Below are positions 34,867 through 39,909 of a DNA stretch of 64,000 bases, piece by piece; within the stretch, counting starts at the first letter, position 1; the number at the start of each line of letters is the position of its first letter. The notes beneath the pieces are model-generated. The model saw only the letters and a list, made by a program, of their open reading frames with translations, did no database searches and was not told where the DNA came from. Source of the DNA: Prolixibacteraceae bacterium (GTDB taxonomy: Bacteria; Bacteroidota; Bacteroidia; Bacteroidales; Prolixibacteraceae); NCBI GenBank assembly GCA_019163175.1, contig JAFLKN010000045.1, positions 1 to 64,000 on the forward strand, written 5' to 3'. Both the position numbers and the translations under genes were made by a program.

Positions 34867-35574
34867 ATGGAACTCTATCAGGAACTTACCAAAGATGTCC
34901 GGTTTGTTGAAGGTCTGAATTCATGCATGAATTGCGGGGTTTGCACTGCCATTTGTCCCGCAGCAGAATTTTACGACTACGACCCCCGAATTATTGCCAG
35001 CATTGTTCAATCAAAAGATGAAAAGCGGATAGAAGAACTCCTGAAAAGCGAAACAATTTGGTACTGTGGCGAATGCATGTCGTGCAAAACACGATGCCCG
35101 CGTGGCAATACTACCGGATTGATCATTATGGCTTTACGATCCCTTTCACAAGATTTAGGCTACTTTACCGAATCGGAAAAAGGACGACAACAACTGGCAA
35201 TCAAACGCGTAGTTGGTGAGAACATCGTTTATCGCGGGTACTGCGTTCTTCCCGAAAATCTGGTTCCCGAATTACATCCTGAGCAAGGACCGGTTGGCGA
35301 ATGGATCTACGAAAATAAAGAGGCTGTTTACGAACGTGTTGGAGCCAATTATAATGGCGAAGGTGAAGGTGCATTGCGCAAAATACCTCAGGAATCGCTT
35401 GATGAAATCTATCGGATTTTTGAATTGACTGGTGGTTTCGAACGGTTTGATAAGATTGAATACTTCTCGAAAAAGAAGGCTAAAGGCATGGGGTTTATTG
35501 ATCCGGAAGAAGTATATCCTGACTATGTAAACCACATTTATTCTACCAATAACGGTAAACACAGCCGACAATAA
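34867..35574 (+). CDS. Heterodisulfide reductase subunit C-like protein (HdrC1)
   Basis: This 235-residue cytoplasmic protein has two [4Fe-4S] motifs, CMNCGVCTAICP (about residue 21) and CGECMSCKTRCP (about residue 65). They are followed by a long C-terminal extension that includes TGGFERFDKIEYFSKKKAKGMGF. HdrC transfers electrons between the flavin subunit HdrA and the catalytic HdrB. The length of about 230 residues, longer than the methanogen HdrC core, resembles HdrC1 of the bacterial sulfur-oxidation-type (sHdr) clusters. It is the first gene of a five-gene operon and its stop overlaps the next start by 1 base. I start at ATG 34867; an upstream TTG extension is less likely because it contains the -7 element. 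Confidence 0.9.
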   Translation: MELYQELTKDVRFVEGLNSCMNCGVCTAICPAAEFYDYDPRIIASIVQSKDEKRIEELLKSETIWYCGECMSCKTRCPRGNTTGLIIMALRSLSQDLGYFTESEKGRQQLAIKRVVGENIVYRGYCVLPENLVPELHPEQGPVGEWIYENKEAVYERVGANYNGEGEGALRKIPQESLDEIYRIFELTGGFERFDKIEYFSKKKAKGMGFIDPEEVYPDYVNHIYSTNNGKHSRQ

Positions 35575-36638
35575 TGAAAGCAGAAGGCAAAATACGAGTC
35601 TGGCAAGATTATCAGAAAGAAATAGCCGATGATCATTATTTCTATGTACGCAGTTGCATACGACAAAATTTTTTTCCCGGTTCTGAACAAACTTTCCTGA
35701 AAATTTTACGCACAGAACTGGGTAAAGATATTTATGAAAATCCGCACCACACAACATGTTCGGGTATCGGCTACCACTCCGATGTCGTTCCGTTCGATAC
35801 CATTCAAACAATTGTTGCGCGTCAATTTGCTCTAATGACCGAAGCCGGATATAAAAATCTTGCAGCTTCGTGCATTACCTCATTTGGTATTTACAATGAA
35901 ATTATTGAAACATGGAAAGAGTTTCCTTCCGAATTGGAAAAAGTGCGGAACTTTCTTAAAAGTGCCACTGGCCGCGAATTTGAAGTTCCTCAGAATGTAG
36001 CACATGCAAGCGACATTGTATACAAATTCAGGGATGATATTGCTGCCCGAAAGAAATTTTCGCTAATCAATCAACATACCGGCGAACCATTAAAAATTGT
36101 CGAACACATTGGTTGTCATTATTCCAAAATGTTTCCATCAAAGGGGGTTGGAGGTGCCGAATTCCCCCATGTACTGGTTGGAATGATTGAATCATGGGGT
36201 GGCGAGGTAATCGACTACCCGGAACGACGCCATTGCTGCGGATTTGGATTCAGGCAATATCTGGTCATGTCTAATCGTGGTTATTCGGTCTCCAATTCGC
36301 GCAAGAAATTTGAATCGATGGAACCATACATACCTGATGCAATTCTATGCAATTGCCCAGGCTGCCCAATGTTTTTAGATCGCTGGCAATATGTAATTGA
36401 AGAAATGGAAGGTAAAACGTTTGGCGAAAATGGAGCAGGAATTCCGGTGCTGACTTACGAAGAAATGGCCGGATTAGTTCTGGGTTATGATCCCTGGGAT
36501 CTTGGACTGCAAATGCACCAAACTAATGTTGAACCTCTTCTCAACAAGATTGGAATTCAGTATAATCCTGAATTGAAATATGCCGGAAAGGATGGAAAGA
36601 TGATCGGAAAACCAATGATGGTTGGCTGTGGATGGTAG
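35574..36638 (+). CDS. Heterodisulfide reductase subunit B-like protein (HdrB)
   Basis: This 354-residue protein has two CCG-type cysteine regions (PF02754). The C-terminal one is complete: EHIGCHYSK, RRHCCGFGF and CNCPGCPMF. The N-terminal one is altered: it keeps Cys28, Cys62 and Cys100 but has Thr61-Cys62 where two adjacent cysteines are expected and Ser103 in place of the last CxxC cysteine. In methanogen HdrB each CCG region holds a noncubane [4Fe-4S] cluster that cleaves the CoM-S-S-CoB disulfide. The alteration suggests that only one full noncubane cluster forms here, and a different substrate. It is directly coupled to HdrC1. Cytoplasmic. Confidence 0.9.
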   Translation: MKAEGKIRVWQDYQKEIADDHYFYVRSCIRQNFFPGSEQTFLKILRTELGKDIYENPHHTTCSGIGYHSDVVPFDTIQTIVARQFALMTEAGYKNLAASCITSFGIYNEIIETWKEFPSELEKVRNFLKSATGREFEVPQNVAHASDIVYKFRDDIAARKKFSLINQHTGEPLKIVEHIGCHYSKMFPSKGVGGAEFPHVLVGMIESWGGEVIDYPERRHCCGFGFRQYLVMSNRGYSVSNSRKKFESMEPYIPDAILCNCPGCPMFLDRWQYVIEEMEGKTFGENGAGIPVLTYEEMAGLVLGYDPWDLGLQMHQTNVEPLLNKIGIQYNPELKYAGKDGKMIGKPMMVGCGW

Positions 36639-36646
36639 TACACCAC

Positions 36647-36674
36647 GTAGAGACGCACTGCCGTGCGTCTCTAC
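36647..36674. repeat. Perfect 12-bp palindromic repeat inside the Hdr operon
   Basis: GTAGAGACGCAC (36647-36658) and GTGCGTCTCTAC (36663-36674) are perfect inverted arms around a TGCC loop. I recall this GTAGAGACGC... family as a widespread REP-like extragenic palindrome in cyanobacteria and Bacteroidota. It fills most of the 53-base gap between the hdrB-like and hdrA-like genes. Confidence 0.8.
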
Positions 36675-36691
36675 AGAAAAAAAAATAATAC

Positions 36692-37714
36692 ATGAAACAC
36701 ATCGTAATTATAGGAGGCGGAATAGCAGGAATTGAAACGGCATGTGCACTTACTGATGCCGGACATTGGGTAACTGTGATTGAAAAAGATTCACAGTTAG
36801 GTGGAAAATTAAACAATTGGTCCTATTTGTTCCCAGACTTTACTCCAACTGAGAAAATTACAGTCGAACTTCAAGCCAAATGCCGCGATAAGGATTTTTC
36901 AATACTTACAAGTACTGAAATCAGCACTATTCTCAGGAAAGATGGCAAATTCAACATTGAAACTTCAAGCGACCAAAAGTTAGAAGCTGATGCCGTAGTT
37001 GTTGCTACTGGCTATGAACTTTTTGATGCCCACCGAAAAGAAGAATACGGTTACAAAATCTACGATCATGTTATCACCTCGGCCGATCTGGAAGAATTAC
37101 TTAAACCAGGCGGCGACCTTACTGTTGCTGCCGGAAAATACCCCAAAAGAATTGCATTTGTACATTGTGTCGGTTCGCGCGACGAAAAATCGGGCAACCA
37201 TTATTGCTCAAAAGTCTGCTGCATTACAGGTGTTAAACAGGCCATCGAGCTAAAAATGCGTTTACCCGACGCCGAAATTTTCTGTTTTTATATGGATTTA
37301 CGCATGTATGGCAAACATTTCGAAGAACTGTACCGCGAAGCACAGGAAAAATACGATATCCAGTTTATTCGTGGACGTTTGTCTGAAGCTTCCGAAAAAA
37401 TCGACAAAAGTTTGCTGATCAAATCAGAAGATACACTGTCTGGACGACCGCTAAAAATGAATGTTGATTTAATGGTATTGCTCGTTGGAATGGAGGCCGG
37501 AAAAGGAACAGCAAATGCTGCTAAAGCTTGTGGAATTGGATGCGAAGAATCAGGCTTTTTAAAAACTACCGATACATTCCTGAAATCTAATTTTTCTGAA
37601 CAGGAAGGAATATTTCTGGCCGGAAGCTGTACTGCTCCCATGTCGGTCAACGACACCATTTTACATGCCCGTTCGGCTGCAATGGAAGTGAAACACTGGT
37701 TATCTAAAAGATGA
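36692..37714 (+). CDS. Heterodisulfide reductase subunit A-like flavoprotein (HdrA, short form)
   Basis: This 340-residue FAD protein starts HIVIIGGGIAGIETACAL (G-x-G-x-x-G). It has EKDSQLGGKL, VVVATGYELFDA and the HdrA cluster motif FVHCVGSRDE...HYCSKVCC, and finishes FLAGSCTAPMSVNDTILHARSAA. Methanogen HdrA is about 650 residues and carries extra ferredoxin domains; this short form has none, as in sHdr-type HdrA and near QmoA in size. HdrA is the flavin hub, the site of electron bifurcation where that occurs. Lack of ferredoxin modules means electrons must enter by another partner. It overlaps the next gene by 4 bases. Separated from HdrB only by a palindromic repeat. Confidence 0.92.
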   Translation: MKHIVIIGGGIAGIETACALTDAGHWVTVIEKDSQLGGKLNNWSYLFPDFTPTEKITVELQAKCRDKDFSILTSTEISTILRKDGKFNIETSSDQKLEADAVVVATGYELFDAHRKEEYGYKIYDHVITSADLEELLKPGGDLTVAAGKYPKRIAFVHCVGSRDEKSGNHYCSKVCCITGVKQAIELKMRLPDAEIFCFYMDLRMYGKHFEELYREAQEKYDIQFIRGRLSEASEKIDKSLLIKSEDTLSGRPLKMNVDLMVLLVGMEAGKGTANAAKACGIGCEESGFLKTTDTFLKSNFSEQEGIFLAGSCTAPMSVNDTILHARSAAMEVKHWLSKR

Positions 37715-38055
37715 AAAATTTTGGTTACTCCATAATAAAACAGCGCACCATTGATTACGATCAGTTTGATGGACGACTATTGAATGAGGTTCTCGAAATG
37801 GAGCCATCGTTTAAAGTTTGTCTTTCATGCGGAGGATGCACTGCTACTTGCAGCGCTGGCGATCTGGTCAGTTTCAATGTCAGGCGAATGAACCTTTTGT
37901 TGCGGCGTGGAGAAACCATCGAACTCGAATCAGAAATACAAAAATGTATGCTCTGTGGCAAGTGCATGTTGGTTTGCCCCCGCGGAATCAATCTCCGGAA
38001 CGTAATAATGCTCATTAAAAAGAGTATTGCTAAATACAAACCCATCAATTCGTAG
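37711..38055 (+). CDS. Second HdrC-like ferredoxin subunit (HdrC2)
   Basis: This 114-residue protein has two [4Fe-4S] motifs, CLSCGGCTATCS (about residue 37) and CMLCGKCMLVCP (about residue 74). This is the minimal HdrC form. The last proline-flanked cysteine of the first motif is followed by Ser, which does not affect ligation. It overlaps the HdrA-like gene by 4 bases and precedes the membrane subunit by 6 bases, so it most likely passes electrons between the flavin subunit and the membrane HdrE-HdrD fusion. The order A-C2-(B2) matches sHdr clusters, apart from the hypothetical gene usually found between A and C2, which is absent here. Confidence 0.9.
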   Translation: MKNFGYSIIKQRTIDYDQFDGRLLNEVLEMEPSFKVCLSCGGCTATCSAGDLVSFNVRRMNLLLRRGETIELESEIQKCMLCGKCMLVCPRGINLRNVIMLIKKSIAKYKPINS

Positions 38056-38061
38056 TTAGCT

Positions 38062-39909
38062 ATGGAAACGACTCCGTTTATATTACCATTTACAATCGGA
38101 CTGCTGTTTATATCCTGTTTTCTGGTGATCATCATTGGAATCTGGATTTCCAGTTTGTCACGCATCGATAAAAGCAGGATTATTCACAGCATCTTAACAA
38201 AAAAAAGTTGGTTTGCAATTCGCGAAATTGTAATGGAATCGCTGCTTCACCGAAAAATATTCCGAAAAAACCCGGTTCTTGGTTATATGCATATGAGTCT
38301 TGCTTTTGGTTGGTTTCTGCTTATCGTAGTTGGCCACATTGAAGCATGTAATCACTATCAAACCTTTTCTGTTCCGGCATACATGGCCATTTTTATGCGT
38401 TATTTTGTTACTGAACCATCCACCACTCTTTCTGGAAAAATTCTGTCTGCCAGCATGGATTTGTTACTTCTTTTTGTTCTTTCAGGAGTAGTGCTTGCTT
38501 ACTATAAAAGAGCTAACAGCCGTTTATTCGGAATGAAAAAAACCACACAATTAAAATTGGGAGATCGGATTGCGTTAATATCACTCTGGCTTATTTTTCC
38601 TCTTCGGTTTCTTGCGGAAAGTGTATCCGCAGGTATACATCACAATGGCAGCATAATAAGTCATCCAACCGGCGAATTGCTTGCTTCAATTTTTCCGGTT
38701 CACTCATTTGAGATGCCTTTGTGGTGGGCCTATTCGGGAGCACTTGGTCTGTTTTTCTTTGCATTGCCTGTTTCACGATATATGCACATTCCGGTCGAAG
38801 TAGTCCTTATTTTTCTCCGGAACTATGGCATTAAGGTTCAAAAGCGCATTGGCGGATATTCCCGAATCCAGGTCTATTCATGTTCGCGCTGCGGTATTTG
38901 CCTCGATAGTTGCCAAATGTCGCATGCCGCAATAAAAGACACACAGTCGGTTTACATACTTAAACACATCCGAAATAAAAACCTGACCGACGAAAAACTT
39001 TTCAACTGTTTGCTTTGCGGACGCTGTCAACCCGATTGTCCGGTTGGACTGGAGTTGAATAATTTACGTATAACTCAGCGTATTGAATCGACCAAGGAGT
39101 ACAATTCATCCTATGAATACCTTAAAAATGGGAAAATAGCTGTCAGTCCGCAAACTGAAGTGATTTATTTCGCCGGATGTATGACACATTTAACCCCAGC
39201 TATTATTAAATCGGTGAAGGAAATTTTCGCTGTGGCAGGCGTTAAATATTGGTTTATGGACGAGGAAAAAACAGCTTGTTGCGGTCGTCCTCTGATGCAA
39301 GTTGGACAATATGAAGCTGCAAAAAAACTGATTGAACACAACCGCATGCAGATTCTAAGTTCGGGAGTAAAAAAAATCGTGGTTTCCTGCCCCATTTGCT
39401 ATAAAGTATTTAACGAAGATTATGCCCTGCCGGGCATTAGGGTTATGCATCATTCCGAGTACCTGCTCGAACTAATGGCCGATAAACGTTTGCCAATAAA
39501 TAAATTGCCCTTGCGGGTTGTTTATCATGATCCGTGTGAACTGGGTCGAGGAAGTAGCATTTATCATCAACCACGTTTGCTGCTCGACGAATATGTGGAA
39601 CTAATTCCAATTAAAAATGAGAAGAAAACAGCATTATGCTGCGGGGGAAGCTTGGCAAATATTAAAATACAAATGAACGAACGCAACCAGATACGCGACA
39701 CTGCTCTTGACGAATACCTTGCTTATCAACCTGACCTGCTGGCAACAGCATGCCCGTTGTGCAAAAAAACATTTACGAAAAGCAATAAACTACCTATTCA
39801 CGACATTGCTGAAATCGTTTATATGGCAATTCTCAATAAAATGGACATAGAAATAAATATATCAACTCAAATAGAAAAGGCTAATGCAGATAAAAATCTC
39901 AGATTCTGA
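38062..39909 (+). CDS. Membrane-anchored HdrE-HdrD-like fusion protein
   Basis: The 615-residue protein has five to six membrane helices in residues 1-260, with histidines in HMSLAFGWFLLIVVGHIEAC and AGIHHNGS that could bind haem b, as in NarI/HdrE. A ferredoxin domain follows (CSRCGICLDSCQ and CLLCGRCQPDCP, about residues 275-330). Two complete CCG regions come next: FAGCMTH...CCGRP...CPICYK, then HDPCELGRG...CCGGS...CPLCKK. This is the architecture of HdrD with a fused HdrE-type quinone/haem anchor. In methanosarcinas HdrDE reduces heterodisulfide with methanophenazine; here menaquinone would be the natural partner. It is the last gene of the operon. A large AT-rich gap follows. Confidence 0.92.
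   Translation: METTPFILPFTIGLLFISCFLVIIIGIWISSLSRIDKSRIIHSILTKKSWFAIREIVMESLLHRKIFRKNPVLGYMHMSLAFGWFLLIVVGHIEACNHYQTFSVPAYMAIFMRYFVTEPSTTLSGKILSASMDLLLLFVLSGVVLAYYKRANSRLFGMKKTTQLKLGDRIALISLWLIFPLRFLAESVSAGIHHNGSIISHPTGELLASIFPVHSFEMPLWWAYSGALGLFFFALPVSRYMHIPVEVVLIFLRNYGIKVQKRIGGYSRIQVYSCSRCGICLDSCQMSHAAIKDTQSVYILKHIRNKNLTDEKLFNCLLCGRCQPDCPVGLELNNLRITQRIESTKEYNSSYEYLKNGKIAVSPQTEVIYFAGCMTHLTPAIIKSVKEIFAVAGVKYWFMDEEKTACCGRPLMQVGQYEAAKKLIEHNRMQILSSGVKKIVVSCPICYKVFNEDYALPGIRVMHHSEYLLELMADKRLPINKLPLRVVYHDPCELGRGSSIYHQPRLLLDEYVELIPIKNEKKTALCCGGSLANIKIQMNERNQIRDTALDEYLAYQPDLLATACPLCKKTFTKSNKLPIHDIAEIVYMAILNKMDIEINISTQIEKANADKNLRF

Follow-up and report, generated by a model that had tools for sequence, protein, structure and literature searches.

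A five-gene operon of a Prolixibacteraceae bacterium, C1-B-A-C2-ED, encodes relatives of the subunits of heterodisulfide reductase (Hdr) and probably works like, and is sister to, the Hdr-like system of sulfur oxidizers (sHdr). It occupies positions 34867-39909 of the plus strand in the 64,000 nucleotides analyzed (the window: positions 1 to 64,000 of contig JAFLKN010000045.1, assembly GCA_019163175.1), and its last gene encodes a membrane protein that joins parts like the HdrE and HdrD of methanogens in one chain. Our tentative reading, to which we give not quite an even chance, is that the products constitute a menaquinone-linked, membrane-anchored relative of sHdr that oxidizes a thiol or sulfane sulfur and may form sulfite. 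The genes are closely coupled: the overlaps of 1 and 4 bases and the gap of 6 bases reported in a first-pass annotation, made by a model from the letters and their open reading frames (ORFs), are confirmed by the coordinates (Table 1). C1 starts at the ATG at 34867; the mechanically drawn ORF begins upstream, at a TTG (34825).

Of 198 genomes of the order (the window's own included), 65, from 45 families, have the short HdrA at full length, with E values of 2.4e-80 or better; the matches that come next are long HdrAs, from 2.5e-54 down. That the short HdrA might be a fragment was rejected, as the 65 copies align over nearly all of its 340 amino acids. In a draw of 100 genomes from the family, 27 match HdrB at E 1e-40, among them 11 of the 12 other members of the genus, and at E 1e-60 none of the 394 other genomes in a draw from the phylum (395 with the window's own) does so. 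Within its own genome, the HdrB model matches this gene only, at E 1e-10, and the next match to HdrA covers 54 residues at 2.9e-5. Judged by record titles, carriers include Prolixibacteraceae, Rikenellaceae, Lentimicrobiaceae, and Butyricimonas, with Gaoshiqia sediminis A06 (L094, an isolate in which the five genes are complete) and an assembly of Alistipes senegalensis (L151, five genes by tblastn) among them. A scan of viral contigs with the HdrA alignment gave only eight weak matches, at E 4e-7 or worse, and none of the 53 plasmid records returned by a search with ED covers 80% of the query.

Gene order was read in 36 larger stretches (again counting the window's own) and in 80 named loci, with gene calls from a simple ORF picker. 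All five genes were called together and in order in 64 of the named loci. Genome loci and named loci overlap (107 distinct B sequences at 97% identity among 114), and by the picker 82 of the 107 distinct loci have the full order, besides one rearranged form, C1-C2-ED-B-A (L044/L048). The picker put an antisense ORF in the place of C2 in four stretches (L038, L052, L054, L059) and missed A in L063. Sixteen named loci are incomplete. Seven of these are short of sequence on one or both sides, and the nine others were checked by tblastn, which recovers all five genes in L099, L102, L129 (broken frames), L141, and L151, as well as in L138 and L147, where ED is cut by the end of the contig; L109 and L130 have C1-B only, with at least 4 kb of sequence beyond. 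ED was called as two ORFs in L035 (genome G097), and L046 (G090) has A-C2-ED with no adjacent C1-B, though L066, from a relative in the same genus, has all five. The proteins of relatives are 36-74% identical in conserved order, and the ratio of nonsynonymous to synonymous substitution (omega) is 0.014-0.147 for every gene-pair with computable synonymous divergence (dS) in six relatives, many of the dS values lying near saturation. A chance operon was rejected on this synteny, the check that the first-pass annotation had proposed; the five-gene order is conserved, which excludes the case it had feared, of genes with no conserved neighborhood.

The kinship with sHdr is clearest in HdrA. The protein has a pyridine-nucleotide/FAD fold and no Fer4 match in Pfam, just as had been read from the letters (a short form devoid of ferredoxin domains). 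It aligns at 29% identity with the 349-residue chain of 6tjr, which we take to be the sHdrA of Hyphomicrobium, and its four candidate cluster cysteines (Table 1) fall on the same cysteines of 6tjr and of methanogen HdrA. In a tree of 43 sequences, 19 of the short HdrAs were used, and these form one clade with the HdrA of a plasmid of Picosynechococcus PCC 7003 (98/95). To that clade 6tjr is sister (98/91), followed by QmoA-like proteins; a 95/83 split sets apart the HdrAs of methanogens and those of the Flx/Mvh and QmoB-like types. The phylogeny suggested with the annotation thus puts HdrA on the side of sHdr, not with the Flx/Mvh or methanogen HdrAs. Since 6tjr is the sole sHdrA in the tree and a long branch, the placing needs more references.

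Published sHdr clusters have the order hdrC1B1A-hyp-hdrC2B2, according to passages of PMC6335251 and PMC12345210. The operon shares with them the order C1-B-A-...-C2, a short HdrA that aligns end to end with 6tjr, and a position for A in the sister clade. It differs in having no hyp gene, no LbpA gene found nearby, and, at the place of B2, the membrane-bound HdrE-HdrD fusion. We do not file it as sHdr, because its gene order departs from that of sHdr and LbpA is missing from the 116 neighborhoods inspected. A survey requiring 40% identity and the full sHdr order placed 334 of 406 sHdr annotations in proteobacterial genomes (from part of PMC12345210); its cut-offs would miss the present form, because HdrA is only 29% identical. 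No earlier description of a Bacteroidales operon that joins C1-B-A-C2 to an HdrE-HdrD fusion was recognized in the literature, as far as it was surveyed. The PCC 7003 plasmid offers another comparison: C1, B, and A are 51%, 42%, and 46% identical to those of the window, in the same order and with the same altered motif in B (see below), but instead of an ED fusion the plasmid has a separate B2 and a separate sulfide:quinone reductase (SQR). This cyanobacterial plasmid (NZ_CP016476.1) is mobilizable, and its hdrC-B-A-C-B genes with the SQR gene after them lie at L078 7053-12793.

B resembles HdrB in fold (5odc, TMt 0.86), with one CCG match in Pfam. Its C-terminal CCG region is complete (C181, C221, C222, C261, and C264; the cysteines invariant in 34 of 34 sequences), and its N-terminal one is degenerate, keeping single cysteines C28, C62, and C100 plus H68, these too invariant in 34 of 34. 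The altered N-terminal motif is kept in the B of PCC 7003 and in an HdrB-like protein of an Acidithiobacillus plasmid, beside whose gene no other hdr gene is listed. A tree of HdrB has many long branches and was not relied on. Cysteines are likewise invariant in C1 (34/34) and C2 (26/26), and the HdrC models of NCBIfam score C1 below cut-off.

The most unusual product is ED. Pfam finds Fer4 and two CCG matches in it and none in the N-terminal membrane part of the window's protein; Nitrate_red_gam matches the anchor in one of 61 aligned ED sequences. That alignment was preselected by length (32 of the 35 sequences of a first set, 28 of the 59 of a length-filtered named set, and the window's own). 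Throughout it, all ten CCG cysteines are invariant, as are H77, H242, R182, R239, and F231 of the anchor, and the model built with the same sequences is a confident one (mean pLDDT in Table 1). Foldseek places the model nearest to mycobacterial EtfD (9ojn, E 6e-21, TMq 0.69), followed by a LutA-LutB model and HdrB chains. Domains, model, and Foldseek agree with the earlier description of a 615-residue fusion of a heme/quinone-type anchor, a ferredoxin, and two complete CCG regions. The accompanying claim that the fusion replaces the second B subunit fares worse: it is a reading of architecture, and ED matches cyanobacterial B2 at E 1e-5 only.

EtfD of M. smegmatis (9ojn) and its EMO counterparts share with ED a heme-b-type anchor, a ferredoxin, and two CCG domains in one chain. 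The heme ligands of EtfD are His78 and His241 (a passage of PMC13083937), and H242 of ED aligns to the latter, in a low-scoring segment. EtfD has no HdrA, HdrB, or HdrC partners, however, and is short of one CCG cysteine, with a histidine as ligand: the same passage gives C538-T539 in CCG domain 1, Thr539 replacing the Hdr cysteine, and His583 as ligand, and has the D1 cysteines wholly absent from the relatives FadF and DgcB. The CCG domain 1 of ED keeps the Hdr pattern, C406-C407 and C443-P-I-C446, in place of the EtfD-type ligands (C-T and C-P-H-C). Judged by its residues, CCG domain 1 is the decisive difference between ED and EtfD, and for these ligands an identity with EtfD was rejected.

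The likeness to methanogen HdrDE lies in the HdrE-like anchor and the HdrD-like ferredoxin with two catalytic-type CCG domains, as seen in the residues and the predicted fold. Methanogen HdrDE reduces CoM-S-S-CoB with methanophenazine, cofactors that to our knowledge are not expected in this organism. Its HdrE and HdrD are two subunits (PMC13083937, in part), whereas ED is fused and coupled to C1-B-A-C2. The curated model that scores highest on ED's two CCG domains is TfrB, from the CoM/CoB (thiol:fumarate) fumarate reductase, but its 100.8 bits are far below the cut-off of 385, and no fumarate reductase partner is found in the operon. As a natural chain that unites Hdr-type CCG sites with a heme/quinone-type anchor, ED should be useful for questions about non-cubane clusters.

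Two further kinds of Hdr were considered. Qmo consists of two HdrA-like subunits and an HdrC-HdrE fusion, and like it the operon would link an HdrA-like flavoprotein to quinone. Identity with Qmo was rejected: the operon has one short HdrA, and C1 scores 39 bits to the qmoC model, whose cut-off is 300. Qmo-like sets occur separately in the order. At L176, L177, and L052/L180, QmoA-QmoB-QmoC-like sets stand next to TusA and FlpD (MvhD-type) genes, with DsrE and rhodanese as well at L176. Identity with Flx-Hdr or Mvh-Hdr was also rejected, the operon's HdrA being short and lacking Fer4. Long-HdrA sets lie elsewhere in the order: those of L170 and L174 include a [NiFe]-hydrogenase large subunit (Pfam), with FlpD also in L174, and are Mvh-Hdr-type sets distinct from the operon; L171, L172, L173, L175, and L178 hold similar-looking gene sets. 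As to the annotation's second refuting case, a simple lactate or glycolate dehydrogenase module, no flavoprotein subunit of a lactate, glycolate, or glycerol-3-phosphate dehydrogenase was recognized by eye, with no profile search, among the neighbor clusters identified and the adjacent same-strand genes listed.

What points to sulfur is the company that the operon sometimes keeps. Mostly it stands alone, but in two clades it adjoins genes for making cysteate or sulfonolipids. Directly downstream of ED in L131, L150, and L158 there is a gene for cysteate synthase (TIGR03844, 445-469 bits, cut-off 325). In L044, L048, and L049 its flanking genes encode a SulA, a PALP protein of the threonine/cysteate synthase type, and a short-chain dehydrogenase/reductase (SDR). 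The SulA of L049 matches 7u7h at 614 bits, a chain named cysteate-C-fatty acyltransferase at 535, and serine palmitoyltransferase at 211; the SulA proteins of L044 and L048 are 60% identical to it. All three keep a lysine 30 residues after the lysine that binds pyridoxal phosphate, and part of PMC9304779 gives as the hallmark of SulA a Lys281 paired, at the same 30-residue spacing, with Lys251. In L049 the start codon of the SDR gene overlaps the stop of ED, and the PALP gene ends 40 bases before C1. The PALP proteins of L044 and L049 could not be named cysteate synthases, scoring 183 and 148 bits for threonine synthase and 121 and 108 for cysteate synthase, all under cut-off.

A methionine-gamma-lyase-type gene (so named from scores under the curated cut-offs) follows ED in L052 and L108, which are one species, and in L157. 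L052 also has a TusA-FlpD-QmoA-QmoB-QmoC-like set upstream of the operon, with one opposite-strand ORF between, and on the PCC 7003 plasmid a full-length SQR (E ~1e-98 to 3hyv and 3sz0) begins 5 bases after B2. Away from the operon, cysteate synthase, SulA, the PALP, and the lyase were not encountered in 798 kb of carrier sequence (40 stretches of 24 genomes, for the most part at a distance of 10-30 kb), nor in a further 14 stretches, of which 13 are loci of other Hdr sets. One of the 40, L180, shares 3 kb with L052, including the TusA and FlpD genes mentioned above. Where the first-pass annotation named no substrate, the neighbors narrow it to sulfur or thiol chemistry as the likeliest.

The menaquinone link, which the annotation had called plausible, is consistent with the window's own genome, in which MenD (over cut-off) and MenA are found, and no match to MqnC. 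To gauge co-occurrence, 49 of the 50 other carriers of completeness at least 95 (all except G064) were set beside 28 non-carriers of completeness at least 95 among the matches listed, 87 further genomes with no match being left out. MenD over cut-off or MqnC (E <=1.3e-125) is present in 35 of the 49 carriers.

Several observations tell against sulfur oxidation coupled to menaquinone. The sulfur neighbors occur in 9 of 116 loci (94 of which hold at least 1.5 kb beyond ED), in two or three clades, and the adjacency is labile: in L141, with a B ~97% identical to that of L131, the 3.8 kb that follow ED contain no cysteate synthase. (L156, near L131, ends at ED and is uninformative in this regard.) Since many kinds of neighbor were examined, some sulfur genes could be there by chance. 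The window and the adjoining 20 kb of its contig yielded none of the sulfur genes sought. A tblastn search of the window with one query each for GcvH, TusA, FlpD, DsrE, rhodanese, and SQR returned only GcvH, at E 0.85, which bears out the earlier remark that lipoate-binding, TusA/DsrE, and Flx genes are absent. Complete CCG motifs are also believed to carry out plain electron transfer in GlcF/GlpC-type subunits. Moreover, sHdr has been called inevitably associated with LbpA (PMC6067878), and LbpA was found in none of the 116 neighborhoods (tblastn, one GcvH-type query); sulfur-carrier genes (TusA/DsrE/Rhd, one query each) were found in one, L052. As for quinone, MenD occurs less often in carriers (10 of 49) than in non-carriers (13 of 28; p 0.02), and in 14 of the 49 carriers both MenD over cut-off and MqnC are missing. 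Twelve of these 14 have a MenA-like gene, 9 of them over cut-off, leaving G001 and G063 without; G006 and G063 match the MqnC model more weakly. Nearly all carriers could thus plausibly have a quinone link, though some would need imported precursors.

If the operon does encode a menaquinone-linked relative of sHdr, its five products would act as one complex, and a sulfane-sulfur or thiol substrate would be oxidized at a non-cubane cluster site (or sites) in HdrB, in the CCG pair of ED, or in both. Electrons would pass through the predicted cubane clusters of C1 and C2, then through the short HdrA by way of its FAD and 4Fe-4S cluster, and onward to the ferredoxin and putative heme b of ED and to menaquinone. 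The product would probably be sulfite, and in some lineages it would enter the synthesis of cysteate and sulfonolipids. Because of the neighbor genes, sulfite for cysteate is the most interesting candidate product. It is a good deal less likely that all of this holds in its most specific form, a branch of the sHdr family that works anaerobically in Bacteroidales, makes sulfite from organic sulfane sulfur while passing the electrons to menaquinone, and so supplies cysteate synthase and sulfonolipids. Were it true, it would explain a source of sulfite free of O2 in the anaerobic gut Bacteroidales that make sulfonolipids (Alistipes, Odoribacter). Alistipes is named as a main gut producer of sulfonolipids, and these are reported to suppress inflammation in mouse models (both from passages of PMC9304779). 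If the broader reading is right, yet another Hdr architecture linked to quinone is common across an order in which anaerobes of gut and sediment abound, and heterotrophs not known to oxidize sulfur compounds would have in them a hidden source of electrons. How the sulfonate of sulfonolipids arises without O2 becomes a testable question through the link to cysteate and SulA.

The same proteins can be put to other uses. Perhaps the complex is a menaquinone reductase with no sulfur substrate, in which the FAD of HdrA takes electrons from NAD(P)H or ferredoxin; the pyridine-nucleotide-disulfide fold of HdrA would suit this, and an operon that usually stands alone, with no conserved substrate gene, is what one might expect of a generic carrier. 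In such an enzyme, however, the complete Hdr-type CCG domains of ED and the altered but conserved one of B would be redundant, and the kinship with sHdr and the sulfur neighbors also argue against it; no sequence feature specific to NAD(P)H came up, in an analysis not aimed at one. We regard this reading as unlikely. Somewhat more doubtful still is that the reaction runs in reverse, with menaquinol driving the reduction of a low-molecular-weight or protein disulfide in the manner of methanogen HdrDE. ED does reproduce HdrE plus HdrD with all the catalytic-type cysteines, and (a weaker point) the 13 of 49 carriers from which CydA is absent need another sink for quinol. Against this, the neighbors point to sulfur oxidation, and the potentials of common disulfides make menaquinol a poor donor for them unless aided by proton motive force. 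The E0' of menaquinone is about -74 mV (PMC10734219).

ETF (electron transfer flavoprotein), FeFe hydrogenase, and CydA show no significant difference between the 49 carriers and the 28 non-carriers, a result that bears on two remaining explanations. ED shares its architecture and best structural match (9ojn) with EtfD, so the operon might specify an EtfD/EMO-like ETF:menaquinone oxidoreductase to which C1-B-A-C2 is accessory. The gene for the ETF alpha subunit is present in 47 of the 49 carriers but is about as common in the non-carriers (25 of 28), and no ETF gene was noticed beside the operon in the neighbor lists, where no profile search was made. The CCG ligands of ED are moreover Hdr-type, and EtfD needs no HdrA, HdrB, or HdrC; we judge this explanation improbable. 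Least credible is an Hdr that bifurcates electrons at a flavin, with a link to hydrogen, formate, or NADH, a kind of electron transfer that the first-pass annotation had entertained. HdrA is homologous to those of such enzymes, and 39 of the 49 carriers match FeFe hydrogenase, though not in significant excess over the non-carriers (17 of 28; p 0.11). The HdrA of the operon has no ferredoxin domains and groups with sHdrA, which is reportedly non-bifurcating. Neither a hydrogenase nor a Flx partner is encoded in the operon, and the order has separate long-HdrA sets that do include hydrogenase genes; for these reasons bifurcation is very unlikely and the suggestion is not supported.

Table 1. Features of the operon C1-B-A-C2-ED, in window coordinates
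Feature	Position	Strand	Remarks
C1, HdrC1-like, 235 aa	34867..35574	+	Fer4_8 6.6e-11; two predicted 4Fe-4S clusters (8 Cys) and invariant C126
B, HdrB, 354 aa	35574..36638	+	NF041780 139 bits, below cut-off
HdrB complete CCG domain, residues 178-268	36105..36377	+	PF02754 3.2e-9
Perfect palindrome/hairpin in the B-A gap	36647..36674		repeat-type element, one copy in the window
A, short HdrA, 340 aa, FAD fold	36692..37714	+	6tjr_A aligned over residues 1-332, 3.1e-56
HdrA 4Fe-4S cysteines C159, C172, C176, C177	37166..37222	+	invariant 35/35
C2, HdrC2-like ferredoxin, 114 aa, 8 Cys	37711..38055	+	Fer4_9 4.4e-9
ED, HdrE-HdrD fusion, 615 aa	38062..39909	+	model pLDDT 92.8; Foldseek best EtfD 9ojn
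ED membrane anchor, ~residues 1-254	38062..38823	+	long helices in model; putative heme b ligands H77, H242
ED 2x[4Fe-4S] ferredoxin domain, residues 271-330	38872..39051	+	PF13183 7.4e-8
ED CCG domain 1: C373, C406, C407, C443, C446; CPIC motif	39160..39408	+	PF02754 3.2e-22; 61/61
ED CCG domain 2 core: C492, C526, C527, C564, C567	39535..39762	+	two CCG stretches; 61/61

The 53 bases between B and A contain a perfect hairpin with a 12-bp stem (GTAGAGACGCA...TGCGTCTCTAC; -22.1 kcal/mol, z -8.5). A similar palindrome lies outside the operon in L059, at 2935, ~5 kb upstream, and the two look like a dispersed element of the REP (repetitive extragenic palindrome) type. A scan for promoters and terminators showed no excess, with 11 and 5 sites where shuffled sequence gave means of 17.5 and 5.3. 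Upstream of the operon, on the opposite strand, is a gene for a DUF5077/DUF3472 protein, and downstream one for a transposase-type helix-turn-helix protein. In 18 of the 116 loci, a lipoprotein-like gene of ~180 amino acids lies beyond ED on the same strand (L043 7516-8064, L105, L124, and L125 among them), within 200 bases of ED in 15; the one in L043, which was checked, has no match in Pfam or NCBIfam. A pair of genes for a HisKA_3-type histidine kinase and a LuxR-type response regulator stands at the operon, or one gene away, in 6 of the 36 stretches (L034, L037, L039, L047, L055, and L058; one of each typed by Pfam) and is a candidate regulator of the operon.

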